Assembly (NCBI RefSeq): GCF_018446385.1
Contig: NC_056000.1
Coordinates: 47,834,722-47,898,721 of the forward strand
DNA from: Zingiber officinale
Taxonomy: Eukaryota; Streptophyta; Magnoliopsida; Zingiberales; Zingiberaceae
Reading direction: 5' to 3'
DNA length: 64,000 bases
In this document: piece after piece, positions 2,491 through 49,295 of the stretch
How the letters are laid out: every line of letters begins with the position of its first letter
Numbering within the stretch: the stretch's first letter is position 1
Program-made: the position numbers and the translations under genes
Notes under the pieces: model-generated
Databases searched by the model: none
Seen by the model: only the letters and a program-made list of their open reading frames with translations
What the model was told of the DNA's origin: nothing

Positions 2491-4494
2491 ATGATAGCCA
2501 ATGCCTCCTCCTTCTTCCTCCTCTTCCCTTCAAGCTCAAGCCGCGATGCCAAGAAATCACACACCCTCTTCAACAAGGCCCCAAAGCCATCACAGGTCAC
2601 TTCTCTCTCTGTTTCTGAGTTTCAATCACAAATTTGCAATCCTCATTCGCTGTGTTCAGATACTGTGCGGCATAAACATAGGAGACTTCAGCCAAGAGTA
2701 TGGAGGAAATGCTAACAGAGCTCTGAGCCTGACCCTTTTCTCCCCCTGCAAGGTTTGTGAAACCACTGGCTTTACTTTATCTTCTTCCTAATGGTGACTC
2801 TTAATTCGGGCTGCAGATAGAGCTGACGGGGGCAGCCAGAAAGCGGCAGGCCGACTCGGTCCCGACGTCTCTGTTCCATGTAAGCCCTGGTGGATGCTAC
2901 TTCACTTGATCTTGTTTTGGATTCATTCGACAGCTCTCTTTGAACTGCACGCAGGCAGTGAGCTTGGGGGACACAATTGAATTCTCTGTGCTGCCGGACA
3001 GGACTAAAGATGAGGTGTTCAATGTTTCCGGTGTCCCGATCGACGAGGCCAATTTGGTACATATGTGAATCTCTTAATCTCCATTCATTCATTCATTCAT
3101 TATCTCTTGAGAATTATATTTTGGAGCTTGTTTTGTTGGCAATTCAGTCTCAGATCAGCAAGGCACTGGACCTCTACAGAAGAAAGACTCGGTCGAAAAC
3201 CTCCTTTTCGGTATGCATCAGGAGAAAAGTGAGAGGTGTGGGAGATGCGAGCAGTAGCAATGCTGCAACTGCCCTTTGGGCTGCCAATGAACTGAGTTGG
3301 GATCCGGTCAGTGAAGATAGGCTTAAGCATTGGTCGAGTGAAGTTGGTCCTCAAGTGCCTTTCTATTTCTCTCATGGAACAGCCTATTGCAATGGCAAAG
3401 GAGAGGTAATTTGGTCTAGTTATTTGCCTAATCATTTCGGTAAAATGGTTCGAAAAGTTAACGAACTCGCGAGATGTTGTGTGAAGGTTGTCGAGGCCAT
3501 CACAACCCCGGTGCCATTCCAGTTCCCTGTGCTGGTGATCAAGCCTAAAGAAGGATGCTCAATTGTGGATGTTTACGATGTGAGTCGAGTTCTATATGCT
3601 ATAACTTTGTTTTAAGAGATGAGATCGAATCACCCATGAACCTGATTGTTTCTCTTGGAGTTTGGGTGTTCTTGTGCAGAGGCTTCGGATGAAGAAGACC
3701 ACTTCATTTGACCCGTGGAGGAGGTTGATTAAGAATGTTGTTCAATATGGACAACAACAGGATGCTCTTATTAATGGTTTAGGCAAGTGTTTTTTGTTTA
3801 ATTGATAACTTTACTAAGCACCCTTTATTTTTCAATTTCGTCAAAAAGGACATCTTCACAGCATAACCGAGTTAATACTTGGATAGTAGATTATTAAAAT
3901 AAAGTGTGTTTTTAGATTTTATGCTGAATATGTATATAATTTAATCAAGACATCCTTGATTCTCATTTTGTAGAGACTCTTGGTTTTGAAGTACTTTCCT
4001 CGCTTAAAATGTTGAGGAAGTTTATGCAAGAAGCCAACCCCGAACGACGCCTCATTGCTTTCGTGAAAGAAAGGTAAGAAAATAACAACAACAACAACAG
4101 CAACAATTCGATAATGACACCATGAATAAACCGTTCAACATCTTTTATTTTATCAAGATCATTGTTGGGCACTAATGGAAGCAAGCTTTTTCTATTACAA
4201 ACAGTGGAAGTACAGTTGTAGGGATCGGCTCATTGGCTCATTCATCAGTCACTGATGAATTCAAGGATGCATTTTTCTCAGGTAAAATTTATCATCAATC
4301 ATTATAAAATACAGTTAGTTATACATCAAAGATGCAATTTTGCCATGCACTTCTATTTTTGTGTTTATCAAATAGAGGCCTGTTTCATAACACGAGAAGA
4401 GAATGAATGGTATGAAGACGTGAATCACCAGTTGCTCAATACATCCTCTACTACTGCAACTTGGGGCGGCACTGACCAACATTTATACATGTAA
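2491..4494 (+). CDS. Divergent 4-diphosphocytidyl-2-C-methyl-D-erythritol kinase-like protein (GHMP kinase family), probable pseudoenzyme
   Basis: Ten exons fit: 2491-2595, 2660-2752, 2817-2879, 2955-3056, 3154-3405, 3487-3579, 3680-3782, 3974-4073, 4205-4281, 4376-4494. All phases agree and give 368 aa, close to plant ISPE/CMK (about 400). CMK phosphorylates CDP-ME in the plastid MEP isoprenoid pathway. Diagnostic matches are LTLFSPCK (about 59-66), SLGDTIEF, SSNAATALWAAN (about 154-166), PFYFSHGTAYC, and SGSTVVGIGS near the C-terminus. Key positions have changed. The Asn two residues after the PCK lysine is Glu (about 68). The Gly-rich ATP loop is reduced to GVGDASSS. The catalytic Asp of the G-x-D-x-P motif is Gln (GPQVP, about 188). 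The first 35 residues are Ser-rich, like a transit peptide. That ATG was chosen because it alone keeps phase with exon 2. Intron 7 would begin with GC rather than GT. It is either a neofunctionalised or inactive paralogue, or a very recent pseudogene. The family call is sure; activity is doubtful. Confidence 0.8.
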
Positions 4495-7293: not shown

Positions 7294-10200
7294 ATGCTGT
7301 CTTCGAACATTTTCTCTAAGTGCGGAAGGTGGACTACTTTCTTCTCCATAGCCTTTTCTCCAATTTCTAATTTGACATCTAGTTCAAAGATGCCAACCTT
7401 ACAAGACCCTCTGAGTCTTGACAGCATTCCAAGATCGAGTGACTTAGGTAGGCTTCAAAGGAACACTTCAAAGGTTACTAAAATGGATTTGGGTACTTGC
7501 CTAACTGAGACTAGAGGGTGCAGTCGGTCTAACACCAGCAAGTAAGCTTCATCTTTTACTCAAAATCTATGATCAACCATCCAGCAACACAAATGTTCTT
7601 CATCCAGTTAATGTTTAATAATATTTTTTATGTCGCTGTTGCATTCTCTAAGGATTGTGTTTTCTCTCGAGATATATTTGCTATCAGTTATCTTTATCTT
7701 TAGGTTTAGTAGTATTAAATCTTTTCCTATTCTTTTCATCACACCACATATATTTGGGATTCTAGTACAGTATAGTCATTTGAAGATCTCTCTTGAAGCT
7801 TGTTGTCATCATCTACAGGCCTTTTAAAAATGAGTCCATAGCGTCACATCATCATGCTTCTCAACCACTATACTGATATTATGTTTTTTTGTCATCTCCG
7901 TTGAGTGCCTTTTCAGCTTTTAGGGACTTTATATTTAATGAAAGAAGCTAAACTCAATATTATCTATGTCTAGCTAGCTTAAAAGGATTTTTAGAACTAA
8001 TAAGTTATGTTTTTTATTAATTAGTTAGTGTATTGTTAGAAATTATAGTAATACAAGACAGCCTCATACATAAGGCTATACATAAATCAGTTATAAACTT
8101 ACAATCTCCTTCAGCAAATGATAATATTACAATTTTTTCTTCTCTCAACTAGATTAATATAAGTAATTTAACTTCGATGCTGTTCATTTATTGTGATACT
8201 ATAATGTTGGGTACAATAGAATAACATGTATAAAATATTGTTTGCTATAGTCAGAGTTGTGCGTGTCTACCACAGTTTGTAGTATTTTTCACTATCATTT
8301 TCTCTCAAAATAACATTTCCAGGATATCTTGCCGTAACCAACTGTGTTTTTTTTTCCAGTGAAGAATATAGTCGGAGAAGACAACAAAAGGATATTTTAC
8401 ATGGAGATCTCCTTAGTGGGAAAATATTACACACTAATAGGAATCCAATGATTTTGAACATTTTGTGTGATTCACGGCGTCTGCAAAATTATCAGAATAT
8501 ATCCTATTCCAGCGAATTGGAACTAAAAGGAAAGACAGACAAGGTTGTGCTCAAATTGAACCTCCTTTTTTTCATTCAAATACTCTTGATGGTTTCTTTC
8601 TTGTAAATGGGTTTGTTGGTATCAGTATCAGAAATTGCCGTTTTTAAAATGTCAATATTAAACATGATGCACATTATACATGGCAACTTCTTATATGGGA
8701 GTCAGTTTTTGTGCTACATAAATAAAGATCATTGTCCAAATTATCAATATATGATCATTATCATTTTTGTAACATGGTGAATATGACCTGTATGGCTGTA
8801 TGTGTATATCCTTTGAAATATTAACTAAAATGCAAACATAACTTTATCCATTATGTAAATTCTGAGCTATTTTTGTATGTGTATAGCCAACTAAGTAGAG
8901 TTACTTCCTTCAGGCCTCTTGATGAACATCTACTGAAAATTATGCTCTAAAAAGTTTGGTGTTCTATTTTCATTTATTATTATTCTTATTATTATTATTT
9001 TGTGTGTTCTAACATGAAATACTGTCCTCAAGGTAAAGTGTTAAGAACATTGACTTTGCATGAATGGACAGTTTCAAAAGATTATTGAGATGTTCTAAAT
9101 TGTTTGGATAATGATAAGATCAATGCTTTCGTGCTATCCAAACCTGAGAACATGGATAACATATTGACCATGCAGCATATTATTTGATTATCCGGTGGAC
9201 CTCACTAATGACATGAATTTTTTGCAAATTGCACTAAAGCAATGGATCTCCCAGTTTGTATGGACTGGCAGACACAAGAGAATGTCATAAATGACTTTTT
9301 AAATGCATACCTATTATAATAGGAGGTATGTGGCAGAATGAAGGTTTGAATCTTAGCTTGTTCCCGAGTTTTAGTTTTTAATTGATATGGTACAGTTTCA
9401 ATTTCATGCTGAAGTGTTAATGCATGGTGTTGGTGGCGAGTTAGAGGTGGATAGAGAAAGGAGATGAAGAAGAAAATGAATAAGAAGAGACGTACTTGTG
9501 TGCACAAGATTTAAAGTCCATGTAGGAGTTTAGATCCTCGGCTGTAATTGTTAGGATCGATGATCGCGACTAGAGAGGGGGGTGTGAATAGCCGCCCCAA
9601 ATCGTTCGCGTTTCTTTCTACAAACTAGGGTTAGCGCAGCGGAAATAAGAACAAGAAACGAAAACAAGAAGATCAAACCTCAACGCGTCGATGTAACGAG
9701 GTTCGGAGATAAACTCCTACTCCTCGGCGTGTCCGTAAGGTGGACGAGCCCTATCAATCCGTCGGTCGATGAGTCCCCGGAGAACCCGGCTAATAATCAC
9801 TCCTTCTGGGTGGAGAAACCTCGCCACAATGTCTTGCAACAGCAAGATAAACAGGAGTACAAGAATACAGCAAGAAACTAAGTACAATACACAAATGTAA
9901 TAACCCTAGCTTGCCTTCTTGTCGACTGGTTGAAGCAGCAACTTCACGAGACGCCTGCAACAGCAGGAACACAGTCGGAGAAGTTCACACGAAGCTTCGG
10001 AACTCAGCAAAGCTCAAGAGCACACCAGCAGCTCAGTAGAAAGAAGAGGAAGAAGAAGAAGAGTTGTCAGCAACCCTCGATCTCTTCTTATATCCCCTGA
10101 TATCCTGGCTAACCTGCGAACCTGCAAGCAAAAAGACCAGAACACAGAAGCCCAAAATAACCTAGCCGTTGAGTCACAACGGCTAGGGCTGGACCGATCA

Positions 10201-13200
10201 GTCTTGATCGGTCGGGACCGATCGAGCTTCCTCGATCGGTCCAGGACCGATCATGCTTTTCTCCCGAACTTCTTGCCTCGATTTGTTTCTGATCGGTCCG
10301 CAGACCGATCGAGCAGGGCATAGAATCGTTAAGTTGATCGATCCGTGGATCGATCAGATACCAACAGATCTCCGATCGATCCATCGATCGATCCAGAGCT
10401 TGGTTTTGCCCAAACCAAGTCCTAAACCTTCCAACCAACATCCGGTCAACCTCGACCTATTGGTACATCATGCTTAGCATCCGGTCACTCCCTCGACTTC
10501 TAAGACTCCCCACCAGTGTCCGGTCAATCCTTCGACCCACTTGGACTTGTCTCTTCGTGTCAAGTATCCGGTCACCCTCGACCTACTGACCTTCTCAACA
10601 CCGGATGTCCGATCACCCTCGATCCATCTGGATTTTTCCTGGCTTCACTCACCGTGACTTTCACCTAGCTTCACTCACTAGATTTTCACCGCTTCACTCA
10701 CGAGATTTCAATCGCCTGCTTTACTCACCAGACTTTCCCACCTCGCTTCACTCACCGGACTTTCCCTTTCACCTAGCTTCACTCACTAGATTTTCACCGG
10801 CTTCCTCACCGTGATTTCCAATCTGCCCGGCTCACTCACCAGGACTTTCCCACCGCCTGGCTTCACTCACCGAGACTTTCCCTTTCACCTAGCTTCACTC
10901 ACTAGGATTTTCACCGCTTCACTCACCAGATTTCCAATCTGCCCGCTCACTCACCGGGACTTTCCACCGCCCGGCTTCACTCACCGTGACTTTCCCTTTC
11001 ACCTAGCTTCACTCACTAGGATTTTCACCGGCTTCACTCACCGATTTCAATCTGCCTGGCTTCACTCACCGGACTTTTCCACTGCCTCACTCACCAGGGT
11101 TTTCACAACCGCCTGGCTTCACTCACTGGACTTTCCCACCGCCTGGCTTCACTCACCAGACTTTCCCACCGCCTGGCTTCACTACTTGACTAGGCTCAGC
11201 TTCACTCACCAGGACTTTCCACATCCGGTCCAGAGAACGAGCTACCGAGCCCTCTCTGACCTAGTCCGGAGAACGAGCTACCGAGCCCTCTTCGACTTCC
11301 ACTTCTGGTCCAGAGAACGAGCTACAGAGCCCTCTCTGACCTAGTCCGGAGAACGAGCTACCGAGCTCTCTCCGACTTCCACTTGCCAAGTTCCCATACT
11401 TGGACTTTTCCCGTGTCAGGTCAACTCACCTCGGGTCAACCAGGTCAACCTAGACCTAAGGTTGCACCAACAATCTCCCATCAAAATACAACTCTTTTGT
11501 TCTTGTCAAACATCAAAATACAACTCGAGTCAGGTCAACTCGAGTCGGGTCAACCAGGTCAACCTTGACCTAAGGTTGCACCAACAGTAATGGTATGGGT
11601 TTGACATTGTATTGTGCTGACATTTGTAACACATACATGAAAGCGTGCTGAGACGAACTTTGTGGTTTTTATTCCTTAATAATTTCATTAGTCTATTAAC
11701 TTGTAAAAATAAGGTTATAGAAATTAGATAGTTAATTAAATTAAATTAAATTGTCGTATTATACCATGTGATAGTGCTGAACATTTGTTCAAGCATGTTG
11801 AAATAAGTAATTCATTTCATCTTTTTTCTTAAATAAGTATAGCAATTAGCAATCACAAAAATATTAGTTAAAAATTTAAATACTAAAAAGTTAATCAGAT
11901 TCAATGGCTCCTAGACAGAGCACAACCCATTGCCCCTAACCCCATGCTAGCATAGCATGATTTGTTGCCCATGAACTGGGCCGGCATGAGCACAACTCGG
12001 CATGAGCACAACCCAAAGAAAGTCAACCATGTTCAACCTGTTATGCCTATTGGCGGGCACAACACAACTATTATACTTTCGGGCACAACAACATAGGATT
12101 GAACTAGTATCGGTTTCGATAGTTTACTGAAACAATATGTGTTGACCGTGCCACTTAACATGGTATGAGATTTTGAAGTTCAAATCATGGATCATTCTAA
12201 TAATTTCTCACTAAAGAAAAAATATAGGAGCTATTATGTAGGATGAAGAAACAACATAAATGTACAGGATTTGAAGTTTAGTTTGCCTTTTTGCTAACTA
12301 TCTTCATTAACCACTCAATGACTTTCTTTGTATGATGATTATCCACCAGTTCTTCAAGTTCTCTTAAAATGATGGTTAACTCTGCCAGAGGAAATATCTT
12401 ATGATTGATCAACTGATCAGGTAGTTATTTATAGCTGAATATTGTTCAGATAAGTATCTCATAGTAGACAAGATTTGTTGGGACGATCTTAACCACACCG
12501 TAAAATGGACTTCTATATTGTATTATCTACAGTTTTCCAACATAATTGGAAGATGACGATGAATAGTGTAAGCTATCTAAACCAGTACACTATGATGAGC
12601 TAAATTAGTGTATATCCTCCTTTTTGCATTGTATCATTTGGCTGAAATTGAGAAATCACAACTCTACTGTTAATATCAAGGATCAAAATTACTGTTCCAT
12701 ATCAATTACATATTGTCAGAGATGTCATACGAGTAAATCATGCAGACCATGGTCTTGAATCACCTTTTTCATCTACTTTCAAGGTTTATAATAGAAATCC
12801 AACAACAATCTCTATGATGTATCTCATAATTATGTGTTTGTTGACCAACAGATGCTCAGTCTAGTGGTAAGTGAGATATATCTAGAAGAGTCTTTGTTAA
12901 TATGTGGGTTTGAATCCATATAATGCCATTGTTGTGAGGTATTTAATCTTGTTGCTTCCACCCCAACAGGAATAATCTCACATCCAATGTGGGGACACTT
13001 TGTGGTCAAGACCATAACAACTATGTATTAGTTGAAGCAGTGCCACAGTTCAGTCATGTATGCTAATTTTGCAATGTGCCAACCATTTCCTTTTTATGCT
13101 GATTCATTTGCTATTGCTATCCAATTAAGTAAACCAAATAATTAGAGATTAATTAACTTGTCTTTCAGATCCTCAAAGGTATGCCAAGATTTGTCAAGAT

Positions 13201-16200
13201 AGTAGAAGTTGGTCCCCGAGATGGATTGCAAAATGAAAAACTCATTATACCTACACCTGTAAAAGTTGAATTGATACAAAAGTTGGTTTCCTCTGGACTA
13301 TCTGTTATTGAGGCTACAAGTTTTGTCTCTCCAAAATGGGTACCACAGGTGGAAATCTCTCTCACCATTAAATGATCCTATTTATCTGAAACTTGACTTT
13401 TGAATTTGCTTTTACTTACAATAATCCATTAAGAATTTGAATACAATGGGAATTTGGGTCTCTGGTTGCCTGTGTTTGAAAGTACAGGGTACTAACACAA
13501 CATTGAATTCTCTTCTCTTTCACTAATATAAGAAAGAATATAGCTTAAATCACAGACTATGTGATTGATATTTCAAGAAAGGACTATGGTGAGCTTACAG
13601 GGAGTCAAGTTCAGTTCCCTTCGCTCCAAATTCAATAAAACAAAGGTGTCTTAGTCTCACTTTATATTTATTGCGTTGAGTCACTCCAACATAAACTATT
13701 CGAGTGACAATTTCTTATCCATCTTTCTTTCTTTTATTGTTTAGAGAAGAAATTTAATATGCAAATTCACATATTCTTAGGATAGTAAGCATGAAGAATC
13801 CAAAATTACACTCTTGAATGGTTCATACTTTGAACTTCGATGAAAATTGATCCCAGAACAAAAGATGAATATCTAAATTCTAAACAATATATGATTTCTC
13901 AAGACTCAAGTTATGATATTCTCAATTTTATCATGGTAAACCTAAAAAAATGTCTGTACACATGTTTTTTTGGCATTGTTCTGCTGACAGTTTTTATATG
14001 CCAATCCTTTTAATTCTTCACATTTGCCAATAGCTAGCAGATGCAAGGGATGTCATGCAATCAATTCCACTCATACCTGGTGTCAAATTTCCAGTCTTGA
14101 CTCCAAATCTCAAAGTAGGCTTCTTATTTAGGTGTAACCTAAGCATATGGAATATCTTTATAATTATTGGAGGATGAACTAGTTATTAAGTATTCAGTAT
14201 TCAGGGTTTTGAAGCAGCTATTGCATCTGGTGCAAAGGAAGTTGCTGTCTTTGCATCAGCTTCTGAGTCCTTTTCTGTGTCCAACATCAATTGCAGCATT
14301 GAAGAAAGTCTTGAACGTTACCATAAAGTTGTTTCTGCTGCAAAAGACCTGGCAATACCTGTTCGTGGGTACGATGCCCCTACTTATTTTTCAATAAGCT
14401 TAAGCATACTAGACTGAAATTTCTTCCTTTATTTTTTTTCTTTATTATTTTAGTTGAGGTATCTCTCTAAGAAGGACTTACTTCTTTTTTTTCTCAATCC
14501 AAAATAGTATGCAGCGTAGACTACCTCAATTCTAAAACAATCTCATGGAGTGAAAACAATGTAAAAATGGCGGACAGAGTGTGGATAAGAGGCCAATTGA
14601 TGAAATGAGAGATGTAACCTAGGAGAGTAAATTGAAATAGACAACACAAAGTAAACAGAGAGTATCAGGGAGCTCTGTTGGGAGTGAAGATTCTTTCTAT
14701 TCTATCCTGATTGTAAAGAGTGAATGAAAATTGATTAAAGTTCCAAATTCGAAATAACAGATGATTCCTTCCTTTAGTCCAACTGCCTAATTTGAAAAGA
14801 TATACACTAAGTATTTAACATGAACTTTAATCATAATGCCATGTCATTTTTTGGCCATTGGACTAGGCTTCTATGATCTTTGGTTGTGTTGTGATGTTCT
14901 GATTCACACTAATAGATAAGTGGCTAAGATCAACACAGTAACAGGGCTTTTATACACGTTGTGATAGACTTGTTGAAGTTTTTTATATACAAAATCTCTC
15001 ATATCGTATGATTTTTTATTCTCTTCAACAAGTAGGCTTCACATTATATCACTCTTCTCAATTTTCTTTTATGTTTGTTTTGGGAAAACCTGATCTTGAT
15101 TATGCACGAGATGTTCAGTGTATTGTTTCTACCATGGAGACCAAGAATTTGTTGCATTGTTTTGTAGTGGAAGTGATTTCACATTCTAGGTACATTACTT
15201 TTCAGTTCTATAGGCACAATTTATGGTAGTAGATTTGAGCATCTACTTTATTGGTATTGATTGTATTGGTGATCTTTTATGATGGCATGATCAAAGTGGA
15301 TAATAGAGATTGATTATAGTAGACAAATATGAAAGCTTTTCCCGAAGCTATGGTGTCGCGGTAGGACATCCAGGTTGTCACCCAGGCACCCGCGGTTCAA
15401 TCCTCAGTTATGACGTATTTGTAGGAATTTTTCCTCCAAATGGAGGGCGCAATCAAAGGATGCTGGGCTTCTGGGCTGGCTACTGCATGCGCTTCTTGAT
15501 TTACCCTAGTGGTCGGTGGGAAACTTCTATTGGATCGGGCCAGTCACCCCAAGGGATAGCCAATGAGGCTAATTGACATTATCATTTTTTTGGCTGGTGG
15601 AAAACTTTCGTGGGGTCGGACCGGTCACTCCAGGGATAGTCAGGTTAACTGGGATTCTCATTTTTTTACCTAGTGGCCGGTGGGAAACTTCCGTGGACCA
15701 AAGATAGTCAATGAGGCTAACTAGGATTATAAATAAAGACAAATATGAAAGGGAGAACATAGAGATTTAGTTAATTTAATAAAACTTTATTTGATTTCAA
15801 TATCTTTAGCAGTATAATCTCTTCATAAAATTGGAGTGATAAGTTTCATGTACCTTACCTCTAGTAGTTGGGATAAGTTTGTCTTATGGTGATGGTACCA
15901 ATAAGTGATGTTAGAGTGACCTCAACCCCAAGCTTGTGTTTCCTACTTTGGAAAGAATGAGGGAGAGGAACAAGGTGACGGAAAAGTTGGGCAAGGTCCA
16001 CCTTTTCCTTCGTTCTCTTATGAAGAAATGGAGAGAGGGAAAGGTGCACGAGCAGAAGTGATTCCCCCACCTTTCCTTGGACTCCCATCCAAAGTGTGCA
16101 GAAAGTGACCGATTTGGTTTCAAACATAAAATTTTGCAACAAAAAAATATAAATTATTTTTTTTGAAGTTTATCTATTTAATATTTTTTGTTTTTTAAGT

Positions 16201-19170
16201 AATTGAAATGTAATTTTGACAAAAAAAAATCTTTTCCATTTCCCTCTCCTCCAATAAGTGTGAGGAAGAATTATGCCCTTTGTTCAATCCCTCAAAGTAG
16301 ATACAAGTGAGGAATAATTTCTTTCATCTGTCCTTCCATCTTCTTTCCACTTAGTCAGTACTCTTCCCTAGGTTCTCTTCTTTGCAAGAAATGCGGCCTA
16401 AAAATTCAATTGGTGAAATCAGAATCATATTCATGAGGATCACTAGGTCCATTTTTCACCAGATACCATGGTAGTTATCTGTGGATATGATCAGTTAAAG
16501 ATAAATAAGCATTTTCTAGAGCTATTGTGCTATGATGCTCTCATTAGTTCTCCCAATCGTTTGGACTGTCAATGCTTCCAAGCCATGAAGCCATCCAACA
16601 TGGTCTGATTAACTAAGGAATCTAAAAGATCTACATGTGTTTAGGCTTAATTTGAATGTGTTTGGATGGAGAACCAGAGACATGCTGCCTGTATTGTGTG
16701 TCATGCGTTTCAGTTTGATTTCATAGTAGAAGGCATTGTATGCGGTGAGGCAATGAAAGAAAATGACTGAAGAGGAGAAAAGGTAACCAGAAATGAAGCT
16801 GTACTGACTCAATATTTCCTAATCTGAATCAGATCAAGTGCTATGAAAGAAAAGTTGAGTCTCAATGCAGCTTACATCAAACTTCAAATAGTTTCAAGCT
16901 GAAATGCTGAAGGCCCCAAATTTGAACTGTGATTTGGAAAAATTTGTTTTTGTTTATAGTGCTAATTGTGTAAGTCTATTTCAGTGTTAATTAGTGAAAC
17001 TAGATTTTTACAAGAACATGTGGCCAATTTTCGCAATTTGATTCTTCGACATAAATACAGTGAATTACAAGAACCCCACTTTACACTTGAACCCATCTAA
17101 GTTTCAAAATGCACTAAGTACCTCTGAAGTGTCCCTAAATAACACGAGAAAATGATAATGCCTTGGCTACCCTATCAGTAGAAAATATATATCTATATTT
17201 TTGCTTAAATAAATATCAATTTAGTTCAAGATTCTTTTCAATTTAATTGCCAAGATCATCAAAGTCTCAAAGCAATGCTAGCATCATCAAGACTAATTAG
17301 TCTAGTTGCATTAAGAGTGTTAACTTTAACACTCTTCTGTGTTGGCCCTAGAACGAGTTGGCGGGGGCGCTGGGGGCGAGCGTATTCACCTTTTGTGAGT
17401 GGCTAGTGCATGAGGTATTGCCACCATGAGGTCTGGGGTTCGAATCTTGACATAGCCGAGGTAAATGCCCTCCTTATGTGCTAGTCACTATTCTAAAGGC
17501 TAGTAGCCGCCCGTGATTTACCTCCTCCGTGTTGGCCTTGTGACGGGTTGGTGGGGACGCTGGGGGTGAGTGTATTCGCCTTTTGCCACCATTAAGAGTG
17601 TTAACTTTATTGGGGGACAATGACTCTCTTTGACTTATCCCTTGTTGGGGGTTATTAATTTAAGTGGGCTTCACTGCCATAATTGCTGATGTCTAATCAT
17701 TGGGAATTGCCTTAGGCCCTCTATCAGCACGGTAGACACATGGCTATTCTCTTCTGCTTATGGCTAGGAAGTTATCTTTCCCAACAACTAGAGTTGTGAT
17801 TGGCACATTCACCAATACAGAACATGCATAATTTCAGAACTTCCAAGGGTAATTAGGCCTTATGCAGAGATCCACATAGTTTCTCTATCAAATGTTTTGG
17901 TCATCCTTAATTTGAGTATGATCTTTTCTGGTGTTTGCATATTGGTTGCTAAGCAGATTGTTATTTTGCTTTATAATTTGAAGATCGTTCTTTGTTCCCT
18001 GTAGTTTATATTCTCTACTTTATGAATACTATTATCATTCCTCATGTTAGAAAATTACCATTCATAACACTGGTCTCTTTGTCATGTTATTTTCAAATAC
18101 ATTTTATGGCCTTGTTATTTGGTAAGACAAATCTGACTGATTCTAGGCATTTTAATTGGTAGGTACGTGTCTTGTGTTGTGGGTTGTCCTGTAGAGGGAC
18201 CGGTGCCTCCAAAAAAGGTGGCGCATGTGGCTAAACGGCTTTATGATATTGGTTGTTATGAAATTTCACTTGGTGATACAATTGGAGTTGGTACTCCAGG
18301 TAATATTTGCACACATACATCCGATACTATAGTGATAGTGCAGTCTATGTACAAGATTGGTCGGTCTGCAGTTTCCATGTTTTCATGATATTTATTAACT
18401 CATGAAATTTCAATATCCTTAAACCATTGGTTTCATTCTAATATAACACATGAATCTTTTATTAGAAGTCAGTTAACATCACCATTGTATTTGCTTAAAA
18501 AGGATGGAAAGCTATAAGTTGATTGTTTACAAACTGCAGATTTTTTAAATATAATTTTAGCTATATTTTCCTTTCAGTTTTTCACTACTGTTATCTTGAT
18601 TAGTAATTAGTTCAAAGAAAGCGGGGACATGATTCTCTTCATTTTTTCCTTCTATTTGTTCCTAATAAACAAAAAAATATTCTGTAAATTCTCTCTTTTT
18701 ATTCCTTGTAGGCACCGTAAGTCCAATGCTTGATGCTGTAATGTCTGTCATCCCAGTAGACAAGCTTGCTGTCCATTTCCATGACACCTACGGCCAATCA
18801 CTCGCAAATATATTCGCCGCGCTCCAAGTAAGCAAACAATGATTTTGTCAGGCTATTGGGAATGAATGCCATGCCAAGTTTTCTTTCTGTTTTTCATCTG
18901 ATCCATTGCCATTTGAGACAGATGGGGATCAGTGTAATTGACTGTTCTGTCGCTGGACTAGGCGGCTGCCCATATGCAAAGGGTGCCTCTGGCAATGTCG
19001 CCACTGAAGATGTTGTGTACATGCTTAATGGTCTCGGCGTAACAACAAACGTGGATTTAGGGAAGCTTATGGTTGCTGGTGACTTCATTTCCAAGCACTT
19101 GGGACGTCAGTCTGGATCGAAAGTTGCCATTGCTTTGAGCAGAGTTACCGCAGGGGCCTCCAAGATGTAA
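7294..19170 (+). CDS. HMGCL: 3-hydroxy-3-methylglutaryl-CoA lyase
   Basis: This mitochondrial enzyme cleaves HMG-CoA to acetyl-CoA and acetoacetate, the last step of leucine breakdown. Eight coding exons fit in phase: 7294-7541, 8360-8543, 13169-13348, 14034-14114, 14205-14368, 18163-18299, 18712-18827, 18922-19170. They give 452 aa, near the Arabidopsis length. The catalytic domain starts at about residue 148. The GPRDGLQNE motif has the catalytic Arg and Asp at about 161-162. HFHDTYGQ supplies the metal-binding His pair (about 353 and 355). The family signature [14 protein letters not shown] has the active Cys at about 386. The first 144 residues are poorly conserved, as in other plant copies. 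The start at 7294 adds a presequence-like N-terminus; an ATG at 7390 (MPTLQDPL) is the alternative. Introns 2 (4.6 kb) and 5 (3.8 kb) carry mobile elements. A TAATAAAG-type polyadenylation signal lies at about 19270. Confidence 0.95.
10180..10400. repeat. Cluster of GATCGGTCC/GGACCGATC palindromes in solo LTR F
   Basis: At least eight copies of GATCGGTC, GACCGATC or GATCGATC-type half-sites alternate on the two strands within about 220 bp. They lie upstream, in minus-strand sense, of the TATA-like box at about 10085. The same cluster occurs in the related LTR at 34600-34910. Confidence 0.8.
10630..11220. repeat. Minisatellite-like tandem array inside solo LTR F
   Basis: About 20 imperfect units of roughly 25-30 bp follow the pattern GGCTTCACTCACC then GGACTTTCC, with small variations. 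The related LTR at 34001-35552 carries only a few of these units (35190-35320), so the array expanded in this copy. That accounts for most of the 0.5-kb length difference between the two LTRs. Confidence 0.85.
12845..13022 (+). mobile_element. Old tRNA-derived SINE in HMGCL intron 2
   Basis: A box-A-like stretch (GCTCAGTCTAGTGGTAAGTG) is followed about 45 bases later by a box-B-like GGGTTTGAATCC, the internal pol III promoter of tRNA-derived SINEs. The flanks carry a decayed target duplication (ATGTGTTTGTTGA on the left, ATGTATTAGTTGA on the right, 11 of 13 matching). The body is about 178 bp. The decay suggests an old insertion. Confidence 0.6.
15336..15736 (+). mobile_element. tRNA-derived SINE with repeated 3' modules in HMGCL intron 5
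   Basis: An exact 15-bp target duplication (AGACAAATATGAAAG at 15321-15335 and 15737-15751) frames the element. The head has box-A-like (TCGCGGTAGGACATCC) and box-B-like (GGTTCAATCC) motifs. The rest is about three related modules, each with a form of GGTCGGTGGGAAACTTC and then AGGGATAGTCAATGAGGCTAA. At 401 bp it is long for a plant SINE because of these modules. Confidence 0.8.
17329..17589 (+). mobile_element. tRNA-derived SINE with duplicated head in HMGCL intron 5
   Basis: It is framed by an exact 20-bp duplication, CATTAAGAGTGTTAACTTTA (17309-17328 and 17590-17609). Box-A-like (GTGGCTAGTGCATGAGG) and box-B (GGGTTCGAATC, about 17437) motifs give the tRNA-related promoter. The first 60 bases (GTGTTGGCCCTAGAACGAG onward) recur in diverged form at the end (about 17541-17585), so the element looks like a partial dimer. 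The flanking duplication is unmutated, which argues for a recent insertion. Confidence 0.8.
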
Positions 19171-22412: not shown

Positions 22413-23265
22413 TTAAACCTTCCCATGTCCCTGTGCCGCGCAATGCACCCTCTTCTTGCCATGGAGTGTGAAGCCGAAGAGCTTAAAGCTGCTCCCTGGA
22501 TCGTCGCCGAGTGGCGCCGCCTCTGTTCGTTCCGGCGACCTGTTCCTAATTGGGCGCTGAACATGCCTCTGTTCGTGGCTGACATGGTTTTGTATGAAAA
22601 GCACAATGTCGTCGTAGAGCTTCTTCATGTGCGTCAGTTCCGACAGCAGCATGGAGTTCTTCCTCCTCAGTCTCTGGTTGTCCTCAGAGAGCGCCGTCAG
22701 GAACTCTGTTTCGCCGGGGACCGGAAAAGCAGGCTCCGCCGCCCAGGACAAACTCGCTTCGTCAGAGTAAAACGGCTGGTAATGGAAGATCTGAGACGCC
22801 ACCTGAGATGTCTTCCTCCTGTGTATCTCCGAGAGCAGATGCTTCCCTCCTCTCCTGAAATACTCATTCGCGAACTCCCACCTGTCCGCTGCAATCTTCC
22901 TAAAACCCTGAAATCGCTAGCACACACCATGAACGCACTGCGGAAAACTGATAAGAAATCATTTAAGAAGAGGAAGAAGGCGAAGAACGATCTGCGCGTA
23001 CGTAGGTATTGAGTTGTCTGACAAAGCTGGAGAAGTTGTTGTGCTTGAAGAACTTGGGCAGGACGTCCATTGCAAACTCCGACGGCCTCCATACGACGAA
23101 GGTGGTGGCGTCGCCTCCCCAAGACACAATGTGATCGGTGCGAGGATCATCAACCAGCTGATAAGTTTTAGTCAGAAATGGTGCAGGGACTACTGATCTC
23201 GGAGAATCCATGCAAGTCTGCACCATGTCCCTTCCTCTCCTCTCCACCAAAAAAGCCATGAACAT
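22413..23265 (-). CDS. HSFB4: Class B heat-shock transcription factor, HsfB4-like
   Basis: Two exons on the minus strand (23265-23002 and 22907-22413) join in phase at NTY|GFRKI, the intron site conserved in plant HSFs, to give 252 aa. The DNA-binding domain spans about residues 26-118 ([15 protein letters not shown], then [38 protein letters not shown]). A heptad-like oligomerisation region follows ([15 protein letters not shown]). Near the C-terminus is the class B repressor motif in the form KLFGF followed by a basic KKR nuclear-localisation stretch. The HsfB4 subgroup is suggested by the short [10 protein letters not shown]-terminus and the LFG-x-x-L-x-GKKR ending. Class B factors lack an activation domain and act mainly as repressors or co-regulators in the nucleus. 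The usual motif is LFGV, so the Phe is unusual. The start could also be the ATG two codons downstream (23259). Confidence 0.93.
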
Positions 23266-34000: not shown

Positions 34001-35552
34001 TGTTAGAATCGATGGTCGCGGCTAGAGAGGGGGGGTGTGAATAGCCGACCCCAAATCTCATTCGTTTCGTTCTACAAATCAAGGTTAGCGCAGCGGAAAT
34101 AAAACAACGAAACAAAGACAAGAAATCAAACCTTAATACGCGTCGACGTAACGAGGTTCGAAAATGAAACTCCTACTCCTCGGCGTGTCCGTAAGGTGGA
34201 TGAAGCCTATCAATCCGTCGGTGGATGAGTCCCCGGAAACCCGGCTAATAATCACTCCTTCTGGGTAGAGAAACCTCGCCACAATGTCTTGCAACAGCAA
34301 GATGAACAGGAGTACAAGAATATAGCAAGAAACTAAGTACAATACACAAATGTAATAACCCTAGCTTGCCTTCTTGTCGACTGGTTGAAGCAACAACTTC
34401 ACGAGACGCCTACAACAGCAGGAACCCAGTCAAAAAAGCTCACAAGAAGCTTCGGAACTCAGCAAAGCTCAAGAGCACACCAGCAGCTCAGTAGAAAGAA
34501 GAGGAAGAAGACCTTCGAACAGTAGCTCCTCAATCCCTTTTATAACCTGCGAAGAAGACACAGAAGAAACTAGCAGTTGCTCCGCAACGGCTAGGATGTG
34601 GACCGATCAGGCTTCATCCTGATTGGTCCATAACGGTCCTGATCGGTCACAAGACCGATCAGGTCCTTCCCTGATCGGTCCCATGACCGATCAGGCCCTT
34701 TTCCCTCCCGAAGGTGATCTCCTTTTGATCGTCTCCTGATCGGTCTGCAAACCGATCAGGAATTTCACTGTATGCGATCGATCACTGATCGGTCTGCTGA
34801 TCGATCAGATAAGCAACAGAATGCTTCTGTTTGGTTACTGATCGGTCACCAGACCGATCAGATAACCCAGCGTATCACTGGATCGGTTACCAGACCGATC
34901 CAGGTTTAGAGCTCCCAGCCCTAAACCCTACCTCGTCCGGAGAACGAGCTACCGAGCCCTCTCCGACTTCATCCGGTCCAGAGAACGAGCTACCGAGCCC
35001 TCTCTGACCTAGTCCGGAGAACGAGCTACCGAGCCCTCTCCGACTTCGCATGCCAAGCTTCCATACTTGGACTTTTCTCGTGCCAAGCTCCCTGCTTGGA
35101 CTTTTCCGTGCCAAGTCTCCATACTTGGACTTTTCCCAGTGCCAAGTCTCCATACTTGGGCTTTTCCCGTGCCAAGCTCCCTGCTTGGACTTTTCCGTTG
35201 CCTGGCTTCACTCACCAGGACTTTCACTTTCACCTAGCTTCACTCACTAGGATTTTCACCTGGCTTCACTCACCAGGATTTCCCGACTGCCTGGCTTCAC
35301 TCACCAGGACTTTCCGAACTGCCTAACATCCCAGTTAGGACTTCCCAGTCAAGTATCCGGTCAACCTTGACCTACTTGACTCTTCTTCATCCAACCTGAT
35401 CAGACCCTGATCAGTATCTCTCCGCATGGACAACTGTACCTGCATTGTCCATGTCTACATATCTTTCTGTATTGTCAAACATCGAAACCATGACCAAGGT
35501 TTACGCTTGGTCAACTAGGTTAACTTTGACCTACTGGGAATTGCACCAACAC
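34001..35552 (-). mobile_element. Solo LTR D (same family as F), inside the LTR of element B
   Basis: It is bounded by TGTTAGAATCG ... GCACCAACA with an exact 5-bp target duplication, CTCTT (33996-34000 and 35553-35557). Removing it restores continuity with the other LTR of B (CTTTCGTTGAAACTTTATCC at about 26150). A minus-strand TATA-like box (TTATAAAAGGG) sits at about 34540, and a GATCGGTC palindrome cluster lies at 34600-34910. It is 1552 bp and lacks the large tandem array of its relative at 9549-11586. Confidence 0.9.
34600..34910. repeat. GATCGGTC/GACCGATC palindrome cluster in solo LTR D
   Basis: About fifteen half-sites of the form GATCGGTC or GACCGATC are spread over 310 bp, mostly as inverted pairs separated by a few bases. 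This is the same motif as in solo LTR F but in a longer cluster. Confidence 0.85.
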
Positions 35553-44571: not shown

Positions 44572-45864
44572 TCAGAAGGCAGGATCATCAAGAGCGGGAT
44601 CATCAGCTGGAGGGTCGTCAGTTGGAGGTGGTGCAAGATGCTGCTCGGGTGCTGGCTGAGGCTGTCCCTGGCGTCGTGTCTCACCTCGAAGAGATGCGAA
44701 CCCTGCAGCTATCTCGGATCGGAGAGATCGAAGGAAGCGATGGCTATCTAGCACAGCCTGTCGCGTCTGAATGGACTGGATCTTGAGCCGAGTAAGTCTA
44801 TCCTCGACGGAAGGAGAGGCCGAAGTCAAGGGACCGACGGATGTGGAGGGTCCGGCAGAGGTGGAAGGATCTGCGAAAAAGTCCTCTGCCAGGAAGTCGG
44901 GCCACTCCTCACCCTCACCTGGTACATCCTCGGCCTCTGGAGCACCAGGAGCAGCGACTGGCGGTGGTCGGCCCTTCCAGGCCAGAATCCCCTCGGCAGT
45001 GACCTCTGCACCCGCTAATCTAAGACTACGCTGACCTGACTCATCATAAATGGTAAGTGGGATAAGTGCCCCTCTGGTAATGTCTATCTTAGAGCCGGAG
45101 AATATCTGTGTCAGGATATGGCAGTAGGGCATATGAATCACTCCAGTCGTGACTGTACTAGATGCCTGAATGATGTTATGAAACATATGCAGTGCAATGT
45201 CTATATCTAGGCGCTGGCTAAGGGAGTACAAAAAGAACGAGTAGGATGGTCGCATCTTCGAGACGTCTCGAGATGTGATGGGTAGGATGCATGCTGTCAG
45301 GACTTTGTACATAACATAGTCCTGAACTCGAAGAAGAGTAGACCTGAACTCAGTCAGGCCAAAGAGTCTCTCCTCCCTAAAAAAATACATGTAGATGTCA
45401 TCTAAGGTAATGTGGGAATAGGGATCACCGAAAGGTAGCTCCCTACTCGGGTAACACAAAAATGTACACTGGGACTCCCTAAGCTCTAAGCTAGTGCGAA
45501 ACAGGGAGGGAGTAAACTGAAGGCCAGTGCCACCAACTCTGGTGGAATAGGTGCTATCATCAACCTTTTCAAGGTTATGATAGAACTGGGCACACAGGTC
45601 TTGATTCACTGTAGTGGTGCAGTCAACTAGTTTATCTAGATGATAGTAGTCTATCATCTGGATTGCGGGTAGACAAAATTGGGATAAAAATTCCCTACCA
45701 ATATATCTAGGTTTAATGGACTCAAAGGTGAACCTAACAAAATCTATCCTATGTTGCTCCGAGGGGAATCTAGGGTTCGTGGAAGGGGCCCTAGCTGGTG
45801 TAGGATCCACAATGCGACGATTCCTATTTTTGACATTACACAAGAAAAATAGCAAAACTAGCAC
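44572..45864 (-). mobile_element. Second ORF of element C, plant-transposon-protein-like (430 aa)
   Basis: This long open frame lies downstream of gag on the same strand. The first 270 residues (RFPSEQHRIDFVRFTFESI, then HNLEKVDDSTYSTRVGGTGL) recall the domain annotated in plants as putative plant transposon protein (Transposase_32-like). That protein is common in plant LTR elements and its function is unknown. The last 160 residues are Pro/Asp/Glu-rich with a short helical segment (DRLTRLKIQSIQTRQAVL). It has no polymerase, protease or integrase motif. The family call is from memory of the pattern and is moderate. Confidence 0.55.
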
Positions 45865-46309
45865 GAAATTTATGTAATAGATAATTGAGAAGAGTTTAGA
45901 GTATACCTAGGAGGCATTGCTAAGATTAAAGGAGGAAGTGATGGGTTGAAGGCGCCTTGGTTGGGGAGAAATCACACGAGAACTTCGTGTTGAGTTTCGG
46001 CAGTAAACGAACAGAAGAAGCCTTCTGTTCGTGGCAAAATCGCGGAATGAAGGCGCCTTAAAGGCTCCTTTGGAGGCGCCTTCTTGATGATCCGAGGCGC
46101 CTTAATCAGGTCGGCGGGAGATTTCCCACCGCTGTTGAGGGCGCCTCCCTTGTGTGGGAGGCGCCTTTGTTCAGGCGCCACGTGTGCATTTTTTTTAATT
46201 AATTAATTAATTTATTTATTTATTTATCGTTGAAGAAGTTTATGATTAATTAAGTTTTGAGAGGTTATTAATTTCTATTAACTAGGTTTTTAGATTAAAT
46301 ATTAAAAGT

Positions 46310-47483: not shown

Positions 47484-49295
47484 TTAGAATAATGTTCGTT
47501 TTATTAATATCGTTTTTCTTTTTGCTCCCCCTGGATCATAGTCTCGATATGGTCTATCGAGGTAGTGTATTTGATCTTTCGGGATCCAATATTGGCCAAG
47601 TCCAACTTGACTAATCAATTTGGACTTGGAGACCCATGCTTGCATTGTTTTTCTATTTGCTCTTTGTACAAGAGATAAATAAGATTTATATTTTTTCTTT
47701 GGTTTAAATCCTAGACCAGTTCTATTGTAAACGACTCTTTGTGTCCCAAGAATTAGGTCAAGATTCTTGGAACCTAAAGAAAACCGTTCTAGTGTTTTCT
47801 CTAGATCCTTGACTTGAATTCTCAGGCTGGAATTCTCTTCTTTAAGTTTTTGGACTTGAGTTGAATTTCCAGTCTGAACTGGTTCAGTCAAAGATTCGGA
47901 GTTAGTCACTTCTTTAAGGACTTCTACTTCCTTTAGAAGTGACTTGACTCTAAGGTTTGATTTAGCTAATTTTCGTAACAAATAATTAATTAAATTATTG
48001 AGTCGAGAGATACTTACAGAGAGATCGGGCCCTTCGGAAACGGATACGGATCCGTGGCTTCGCTCGGACTCGGCCTCCGACTCGCTTTCACTCTCGGACA
48101 GGTTGATTTGGTCCTGGGCCATCAGCGCTAGTAAACTCGCCTGATCGAGTTCGTCGTCGTCGTCTTCTGAGGAAGATTCATCCCATGTCGCCTTCAGGGT
48201 CTTCTTCCTTCTCTTCTTCTTTGCTTCCTTTTGGTTAGGGTAGTTGGCCTTGATGTGCCCCTTCTGGTTGCATCCGTAGCAGATCACCTCAAATTTTACC
48301 TTAGAATTCGGTTGAGCCTCCTTGGATTGGACTGCCTTCTTTAGGTCCCGCTTGTTGAAACCTTTCTTCTTCTTGTAGAGTCTTTTCACAAGGTTCATGA
48401 GTTCAATGGTTAGTTCATTGTCTTCTTCATCTAAGTCGATTTCTGCTTCCGACTCCTGTTCGGTTCTTCGTCGTGATCTTGATTCACGAGCTCCACCGGT
48501 ACCTGCAAGCAAAGCAATTCCTTTCTCAGAAGGCTTTGTATTAGTCTGCTCATGAAGTTCGAATTATGAAAATAGCTCGTCTAATCTAATTGAAGATAAA
48601 TCTTTGGAGACTTTGTAGGCATCTACCATTGATGCCCACAATGTACTCCTAGGAAAAGATGTGAGTGCATACCTTATGATGTCTCTATTCTCGACCTTTT
48701 GACCGATTGCGTGGAGGGAGTTTAGGATGTCTTGTATCCATGCGTGGAGTTGACAGGCCGTCTCATCTTCCTGCATTTTTAGGTTATACAATTTATTAAG
48801 CAACAAGTCACGTTTACTTACTTTTGTGTCGGAGGTTCCCTTGTGGAGTTCGATCAGCTTCTCCCAAAGCTCTTTTGCGCTGGAGAATGGTCCAACTCTG
48901 TTGAGTTCCTCCTTGGTCAGTCTGCATTGGAGGGTGCATGTTGCTCTGGCATCAATTTCCACCTTTTTGATTAGGGTCGGTTCCCATTTTTCGCAGGGTG
49001 TTGGCTTGCCGTTTTCGTCGGATGGTAGTTGTAGTTTGGTCTTGATTATCATCCACGTATCGAACTGAGTCTTGAGGAAGGTTTCCATTCACCCCTTCCA
49101 ATATCCGAAGTCTTCTCCGGAGAAGAGTGGGGACGAACAGTGCTGAAACCTTTTTGTTGGGCCATTTAAAATCCTGAACGACAAAAACAATAAAACCGGT
49201 TCCAAGACTGGGTCTTGGATTAGCAGTGCGGGAGAAATAAGGGAAAACGAGCTCGAGTGGTATTGTACCAACCTCGAGCAAAACCGATTCGACAA
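47484..49295 (-). mobile_element. Gag region of element C
   Basis: The N-terminal part resembles plant Copia gag (UBN2-type, with WEKLIELHKGTSDTK and Leu-rich helical segments). The C-terminal part carries a CCHC zinc knuckle (CYGCNQKGHIKANYP, with Tyr close to the usual final Cys), then acidic Ser/Glu-rich and coiled-coil-like stretches. Treated as a fossil part. It looks close to whole. Confidence 0.8.

Follow-up and report, generated by a model that had tools for sequence, protein, structure and literature searches.

Can a plant gene outlive the chemistry of the enzyme it once encoded? The question is raised by a gene resembling CMK/IspE (4-diphosphocytidyl-2-C-methyl-D-erythritol kinase, which serves isoprenoid synthesis in plastids) at 2491-4494 on the plus strand of the window, the 64,000-nucleotide stretch of the ginger (Zingiber officinale) genome analysed here. 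The first-pass annotation of this stretch had described an intact spliced frame together with the loss of conserved kinase residues. We consider the structure, active site, selective constraint and age of the gene, and weigh whether it is kept for something other than catalysis, is dying, encodes a new enzyme or has been modelled wrongly.

Gene structure and family assignment

Rebuilt from the window sequence, the gene comprises ten exons totalling 1107 nt, that is 368 codons and a TAA stop, with no internal stops, which bears out the earlier description of its frame (Table 1). Splice sites are GT-AG in eight introns and GC-AG in intron 7 (AG/GCAAGT). An intact allele is found on the homologous contig (C16), and all nine donor and nine acceptor dinucleotides are identical there, the GC donor included. 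The introns span 64-191 bp, compared with 70-2048 bp in the canonical CMK of the same genome.

Table 1. Exons and altered motifs of the CMK/IspE-like gene, in window coordinates
Feature	Position	Strand	Remarks
Exon 1	2491..2595	+	Start codon, N-terminal region; 35 codons vs 69 modelled in canonical exon 1
Exon 2	2660..2752	+	Ends ...LTLFSPCK; Lys66, the equivalent of E. coli IspE Lys10, is kept
Exon 3	2817..2879	+	21 codons (canonical CMK: 23); lacks substrate-side residues
Exon 4	2955..3056	+	Rebuilt frame; intron comparison with canonical CMK
Exon 5	3154..3405	+	Equals canonical exons 5 and 6; canonical intron 5 expected between 3210 and 3211
Exon 6	3487..3579	+	Rebuilt frame; intron comparison with canonical CMK
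Exon 7	3680..3782	+	Followed by the GC donor, kept in the C16 allele
Exon 8	3974..4073	+	3' end contributes to the third motif
Exon 9	4205..4281	+	With the end of exon 8 encodes the third motif, partly kept (KESGST for SGSGST)
Exon 10	4376..4494	+	Includes the stop; C-terminal tail ACFITREENEWY
Glu68	2820..2822	+	Asn in 66/66 bacterial rows and in canonical CMK (E. coli Asn12)
Asp79-Pro82 (D-S-V-P)	2853..2864	+	Replaces D-G-Y/F-H; Pro82 corresponds to E. coli His26
Former Gly-rich ATP loop, residues 145-156	3223..3258	+	Deletion of PTG, insertion of one residue, GGG replaced; SSNAATALWAAN directly after it kept
Gln188	3352..3354	+	Catalytic residue replaced (Asp141 in E. coli; Asp in 66/66 bacterial rows)

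Eight of the nine introns fall at the same alignment columns and in the same phases as introns of canonical CMK. Canonical intron 5 is absent, and the N-terminal region, where the first intron sits, aligns poorly. Length differences between the two genes amount to whole codons. Processed pseudogenes lack introns, and this gene has nine, eight of them at canonical positions. The canonical gene was modelled with 11 exons and 407 codons, its first donor being one of two in-frame choices. Rice OsIspE (Os01g0802100) is likewise described with 11 exons, including a 96-bp exon 2 (PMC9678938), and because the two agree in number, 11 exons are likely to be the ancestral state for CMK.

The window protein matches the NCBIfam model TIGR00154 (ispE) with E = 1.4e-19 and 70.8 bits, below the curated cut-off of 138.7 that the canonical CMK of the same genome exceeds with 184.7 bits. 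Against Pfam PF00288 (GHMP_kinases_N) it scores 14.1 bits (E = 0.056), again below the gathering cut-off (22.3), compared with 51.8 bits for canonical CMK. The two plant proteins are 50% identical over 286 aligned domain codons (residues 58-345, C11 copy of the canonical gene). The best PDB sequence match of the window protein is 2v2q (E = 9.2e-13), an IspE that we take to be from Aquifex. The significant similarity and the introns shared with plant CMK place the origin of the window gene in IspE by homology, and it is from this homology only that we infer a GHMP fold for its product.

The N-terminus gives mixed signs as to a possible plastid-targeting role: five of the first 35 residues of the window protein are basic and one is acidic, but Ser and Thr make up only 18% of its first 57 residues, compared with 25% of the first 92 in canonical CMK. 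The C-terminal tail is well kept relative to canonical CMK and aligns poorly to bacterial sequences.

The canonical CMK of ginger

The assembly that contains the window, on contig C15, measures 3.09 Gb, and most matches in it occur as contig pairs; the published ginger assembly is reported as 11 pseudochromosome pairs of about 3.1 Gb (PMC8342452). Among the best 52 candidates scored, the CMK-like loci at E <= 0.01 are the window gene, its C16 allele, and canonical CMK on C11 and C12, the last being the canonical gene that the first-pass annotation had proposed to look for elsewhere in the genome. That annotation had also stated that plants normally have one CMK gene. This agrees with the published norm for most land plants, in which MEP genes after DXS are described as resisting duplication, with exceptions such as soybean (PMC7912892). 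A Hedychium transcriptome is reported to contain one CMK gene (PMC4472261).

Canonical CMK is itself tandemly duplicated on both homologues (C11:113463786-113497030 and C12:125452253-125606363; loci L030-L033). The coding sequences of the two C11 copies are identical. One of the C12 copies is complete, and a search for exons 1-3 of the other did not find them. Either a recent duplication or an artefact of assembly could account for the tandem pair. In the C11 copies, intron 9 holds about 1.1 kb (L030:6614-7759), partly CT-rich, with no counterpart in the complete C12 copy.

Loss of active-site residues

To place these changes, 66 bacterial rows (65 open-frame loci and E. coli IspE) were aligned with the two plant proteins. 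The bacterial loci derive from the best 80 of 585 relatives in an alignment-based scan, of which 15 were dropped by an open-frame filter; the 80 were found through patterns over the K-I-N-L and D-G-Y-H motifs, and conservation at these motifs is thus partly by construction. A first scan of other genome contigs with canonical CMK returned no relatives of that protein, and no relatives of the window protein were found in viral contigs.

The three alterations named by the first-pass annotation are all recovered in this alignment. Gln188 replaces the catalytic Asp and Glu68 replaces the Asn after the PCK lysine, each of the replaced residues being present in 66 of 66 bacterial rows. The Gly-rich ATP loop is degraded from PTGAGLGGGSSNAA to RGVGDASSSNAA, with three residues deleted and one inserted, leaving RGVGDASSS in place of the PxGAGLGGGSS pattern. 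The damage extends beyond what had been noted: D-G-F-H has become D-S-V-P, with two residues deleted beside it relative to canonical CMK, and the equivalents of Lys96, Thr181 and Gly239 are changed. The substrate-site Asn and His are both present in canonical CMK.

We further note that canonical CMK matches 26 of the columns with at least 95% conservation across the 66 bacterial rows, and that half of these 26 (13/26) are lost in the window gene. The losses correspond to E. coli Asn12, Leu15, Arg21, His26, Lys96, Pro99, the Gly102 position (Ala in most rows), Leu104, Gly106, Gly107, Asp141, Thr181 and Gly239, while Lys66, the equivalent of Lys10, is kept. Retention is about half both at these strongly conserved columns (13/26) and over all consensus columns (52/103). 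Because the most conserved columns are retained no better than the others, no ligand site is singled out as preserved. In E. coli IspE, Asp141 and Lys10 are described as substrate contacts (PMC11541488), and His26, Asn12 and Asp141 as contacting ligands in the substrate site (PMC12902931). Since residues that contact substrate or ligand have been lost, CDP-ME kinase activity of the window protein appears very unlikely.

Selection on the reading frame

A dN/dS near 1, which the first-pass annotation had named as a sign of a dead copy, is not what we find. Between the window gene and canonical CMK the pairwise ratio is 0.24-0.30, with bootstrap ranges of 0.13-0.34 (NG86) and 0.20-0.40 (LWL85). 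For seven MEP genes, published median ratios range from 0.04 to 0.14 (PMC7912892). If canonical CMK evolves at about 0.1 and dS is shared equally, our own estimate of omega for the window lineage would be near 0.4, a value that fits a protein under relaxed but real constraint.

Comparison of the alleles on C15 and C16, with counts taken from one assembly, points in the same direction. They differ at 14 of 1107 exon sites compared with 33 of 874 intron sites (Fisher p = 0.0003), and the exons are free of gap events (0 in 1107 sites), of which introns and flanks together have 10 over 1831 sites (p = 0.017). The exon differences divide into seven nonsynonymous and seven synonymous (p of 0.02-0.08 against the neutral expectation, varying with the transition rate), and three of the seven amino-acid changes are in exon 1. 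The resulting dN/dS is 0.0082/0.0285 = 0.29 by NG86 and 0.0097/0.0201 = 0.48 by maximum likelihood, below 1 again in a test that is weak alone: the allelic counts have little power because the control, a pair of canonical CMK alleles (L030 and L032) differing by six codons, also gives four nonsynonymous and two synonymous changes (NG86 0.0043/0.0069). Between C15 and C16, stretches of the neighbouring heat-shock-factor and HMG-CoA-lyase genes show identities of 97.0%, 98.6% and 99.6%, figures that pool exons and introns and say little.

The earlier argument that an intact frame is unlikely for an old pseudogene agrees with a simulation of decay that took canonical CMK as ancestor and assumed the active-site losses to be neutral. 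Drifting to 13 losses in 26 columns required about 0.33 substitutions per site and left a mean of 7 stops, with 1 of 300 runs stop-free, whereas the window gene carries none; about 48 indels are expected under the same drift at the non-coding indel ratio. With neutrality assumed for only 6 of the losses, 16 of 300 runs stayed stop-free, and for only 3 the number rose to 71, so that a partly adaptive, recent loss is compatible with the stop counts alone. These comparisons of sequence support the view that purifying selection on the frame would have continued after the catalytic constraint was gone.

Age and origin of the duplicate

Over residues 58-345, the window gene and canonical CMK differ by a dN of 0.38 and a dS of 1.58 (NG86), with dS estimated at 1.25 by LWL85 and 1.41 by maximum likelihood. 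Bootstrapped dS spans 1.16-2.84 for NG86 (median 1.56; 294/300 draws usable) and 0.95-1.88 for LWL85 (median 1.26; 298/300 usable), and the corrected fourfold transversion distance (4DTv) is 0.48 over 68 fourfold sites. The literature gives a Ks of 0.3 to the Zingiberaceae duplication and of 0.7 to the separation of ginger from banana, which is placed at 63.57 million years (PMC8342452), and the corresponding 4DTv values are about 0.125 and about 0.25 (PMC8342452, PMC10285302). An origin in the recent Zingiberaceae duplication is rejected because the lower bounds of dS (0.95 and 1.16) and the 4DTv exceed the values for both events, an argument that a faster local rate would weaken. By our own arithmetic on this clock, which uses the two bootstrap medians, assumes one rate and carries a wide error, the copies would have parted roughly 115-140 million years ago. 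The window gene thus looks like an old duplicate, its age being read from synonymous divergence only.

A whole-genome-duplication origin was sought through synteny and set aside, two neighbouring genes having revealed no shared block, although so small a probe may have missed one. The closest paralogues of the HMG-CoA-lyase-like gene are on C19/C20 and C21/C22, and the closest heat-shock-factor paralogues among the matches listed are on C1/C2, in neither case beside canonical CMK on C11/C12. The only heat-shock factors within 2 Mb of canonical CMK among the matches listed are 58% identical and lie about 1.9 Mb away (C11:111586816 and C12:123539470). They count as no evidence because the family is so large.

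A candidate pseudoenzyme and its alternatives

The window gene has lost catalytic residues beside a canonical paralogue and shows purifying selection on its protein, for which the allelic counts by themselves are marginal. We therefore regard it as fairly probable, judging from the sequence, that this is an old, intron-bearing CMK duplicate without CDP-ME kinase chemistry that has been kept as a pseudoenzyme. Such a pseudo-CMK would act by binding a protein partner and not by catalysis. The partner would most plausibly be canonical CMK, a neighbouring enzyme of the MEP pathway or another plastid protein, and might be bound through the surfaces that are still well kept; agreement with canonical CMK is good at SSNAATALWAAN, in the YC-G-GEVVE segment and in the C-terminal TREENEWY tail. 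Through such binding the pseudo-CMK may tune the amount or activity of its partner, in the manner of PDX1.2, TSB-like and prozyme. A more specific proposal, rather unlikely as it stands, is that the pseudo-CMK has served the plastid MEP pathway as a non-catalytic subunit or as a brake since before the ginger-banana split. If true, it would make CMK an exception to the rule that post-DXS MEP genes rarely keep duplicates, and the CMK step might be a point at which terpene-rich gingers exert control.

Several of the observations above can be read differently. Half of the most conserved residues are gone, at the same rate as elsewhere in the protein, which looks like lifted constraint and would be expected of a dying gene that spent most of its history as a working or moonlighting CMK, lost its function rather recently and has stops and frameshifts yet to come. 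The allelic ratio of only 7:7 measures current selection weakly, and the 71 stop-free genes among 300 simulated with only 3 of 13 losses neutral fit this history as well. Drift to the observed loss nevertheless brings stops in 299 of 300 runs and many expected indels, and the alleles differ less in exons than in introns and show no exon indels, and we consider a dying gene unlikely, if a serious contender. The retention of the E. coli Lys10 equivalent and of the SSNAA segment in a copy that is old and constrained would also suit a new enzyme, in which the GHMP fold is kept for a new substrate or chemistry. This has a small chance of being right: the Gly loop has gone along with the catalytic Asp and the Asn and His of the substrate site, no substitute motif is seen, and the protein fails the GHMP_kinases_N cut-off that canonical CMK passes.

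The gene model itself could be at fault, with real transcripts that, for instance, retain an intron or use another donor at intron 7, and with no 368-residue protein made. The model requires the GC donor of intron 7, and the window has GT at +5 and +7 of this intron; splicing at +5 would cause a frameshift, and the GT at +7 is common to both alleles. However, both alleles share the GC donor and the GT at +5 is missing from the C16 allele, and the agreement of eight of nine introns with canonical introns in column and phase also speaks for the model, which makes this explanation highly improbable.

Relation to known systems

Plant CMK/IspE, represented by the C11/C12 copies and rice OsIspE (Os01g0802100), shares with the window gene homology along the domain, the eight intron positions and phases, and the C-terminal tail. 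The window gene differs in having no catalytic Asp, substrate Asn and His, Gly loop or canonical intron 5, in its shorter N-terminus, and in scoring below the ispE cut-off.

The pseudoenzyme reading has parallels in other pathways. PDX1.2 (PMC6829848) and TSB-like (PMC12727527) are non-catalytic paralogues that stand beside an active relative in plant metabolism, and TSB-like is reported to activate its partner allosterically (PMC12727527). Prozyme, a catalytically dead paralogue of Trypanosoma brucei AdoMetDC, forms a functional complex with its active counterpart (PMC5201418). In contrast, these are other enzymes in other pathways, prozyme's being unrelated to CMK, and for the window gene any partner or complex would be a prediction.

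The GHMP-kinase fold has also been reused outside catalysis, as in XOL-1 of C. elegans, for which no ATP binding was detected; the same paper counts yeast Gal3, an inducer of GAL genes, among the GHMP proteins (PMC11349215). The fold of the window protein comes from homology only, and XOL-1, unlike a plant metabolic paralogue, controls sex in a nematode. We know of no derivation of XOL-1 or Gal3 from IspE.

No plant pseudo-CMK was described among the matches listed in the literature on CMK/IspE pseudokinases, inactive or CMK-like genes and Zingiberaceae CMK, as judged by titles and the starts of abstracts. For Arabidopsis, one study of MEP genes reports that no pseudogene remnants were found, and dominant-negative harm by mutated duplicates is offered there as one reason (PMC7912892). 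An old, catalytically dead yet protected duplicate would directly serve to test this idea: either dead copies can be tolerated and used, or the window copy is harmless because the binding targets of canonical CMK are no longer bound by it. The window gene is, on its sequence, a candidate regulator of isoprenoid supply in a family of spice and medicinal crops.

Other features of the window

Exons of the HMG-CoA-lyase-like gene (Pfam HMGL-like) lie at about 13181-19167 on the plus strand, and a heat-shock-factor gene (Pfam HSF_DNA-bind) with open exons in both homologues lies at 22416-23211 on the minus strand, presumably of class B. A GC-rich stretch with repeated translation units occurs at 10100-11600 and at 34925-35326. 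Among the best 40 of 2926 candidates, 301 bases of this stretch match all 40 scored places (its own included) at 96% identity or more, and many of the matches form pairs spaced by about 5 kb, an arrangement expected of retrotransposon long terminal repeats. On the minus strand, an open frame at 44572-45906 bears a weak, below-cut-off resemblance to a plant transposon protein, and another at 48564-49088 resembles a copia-type gag.
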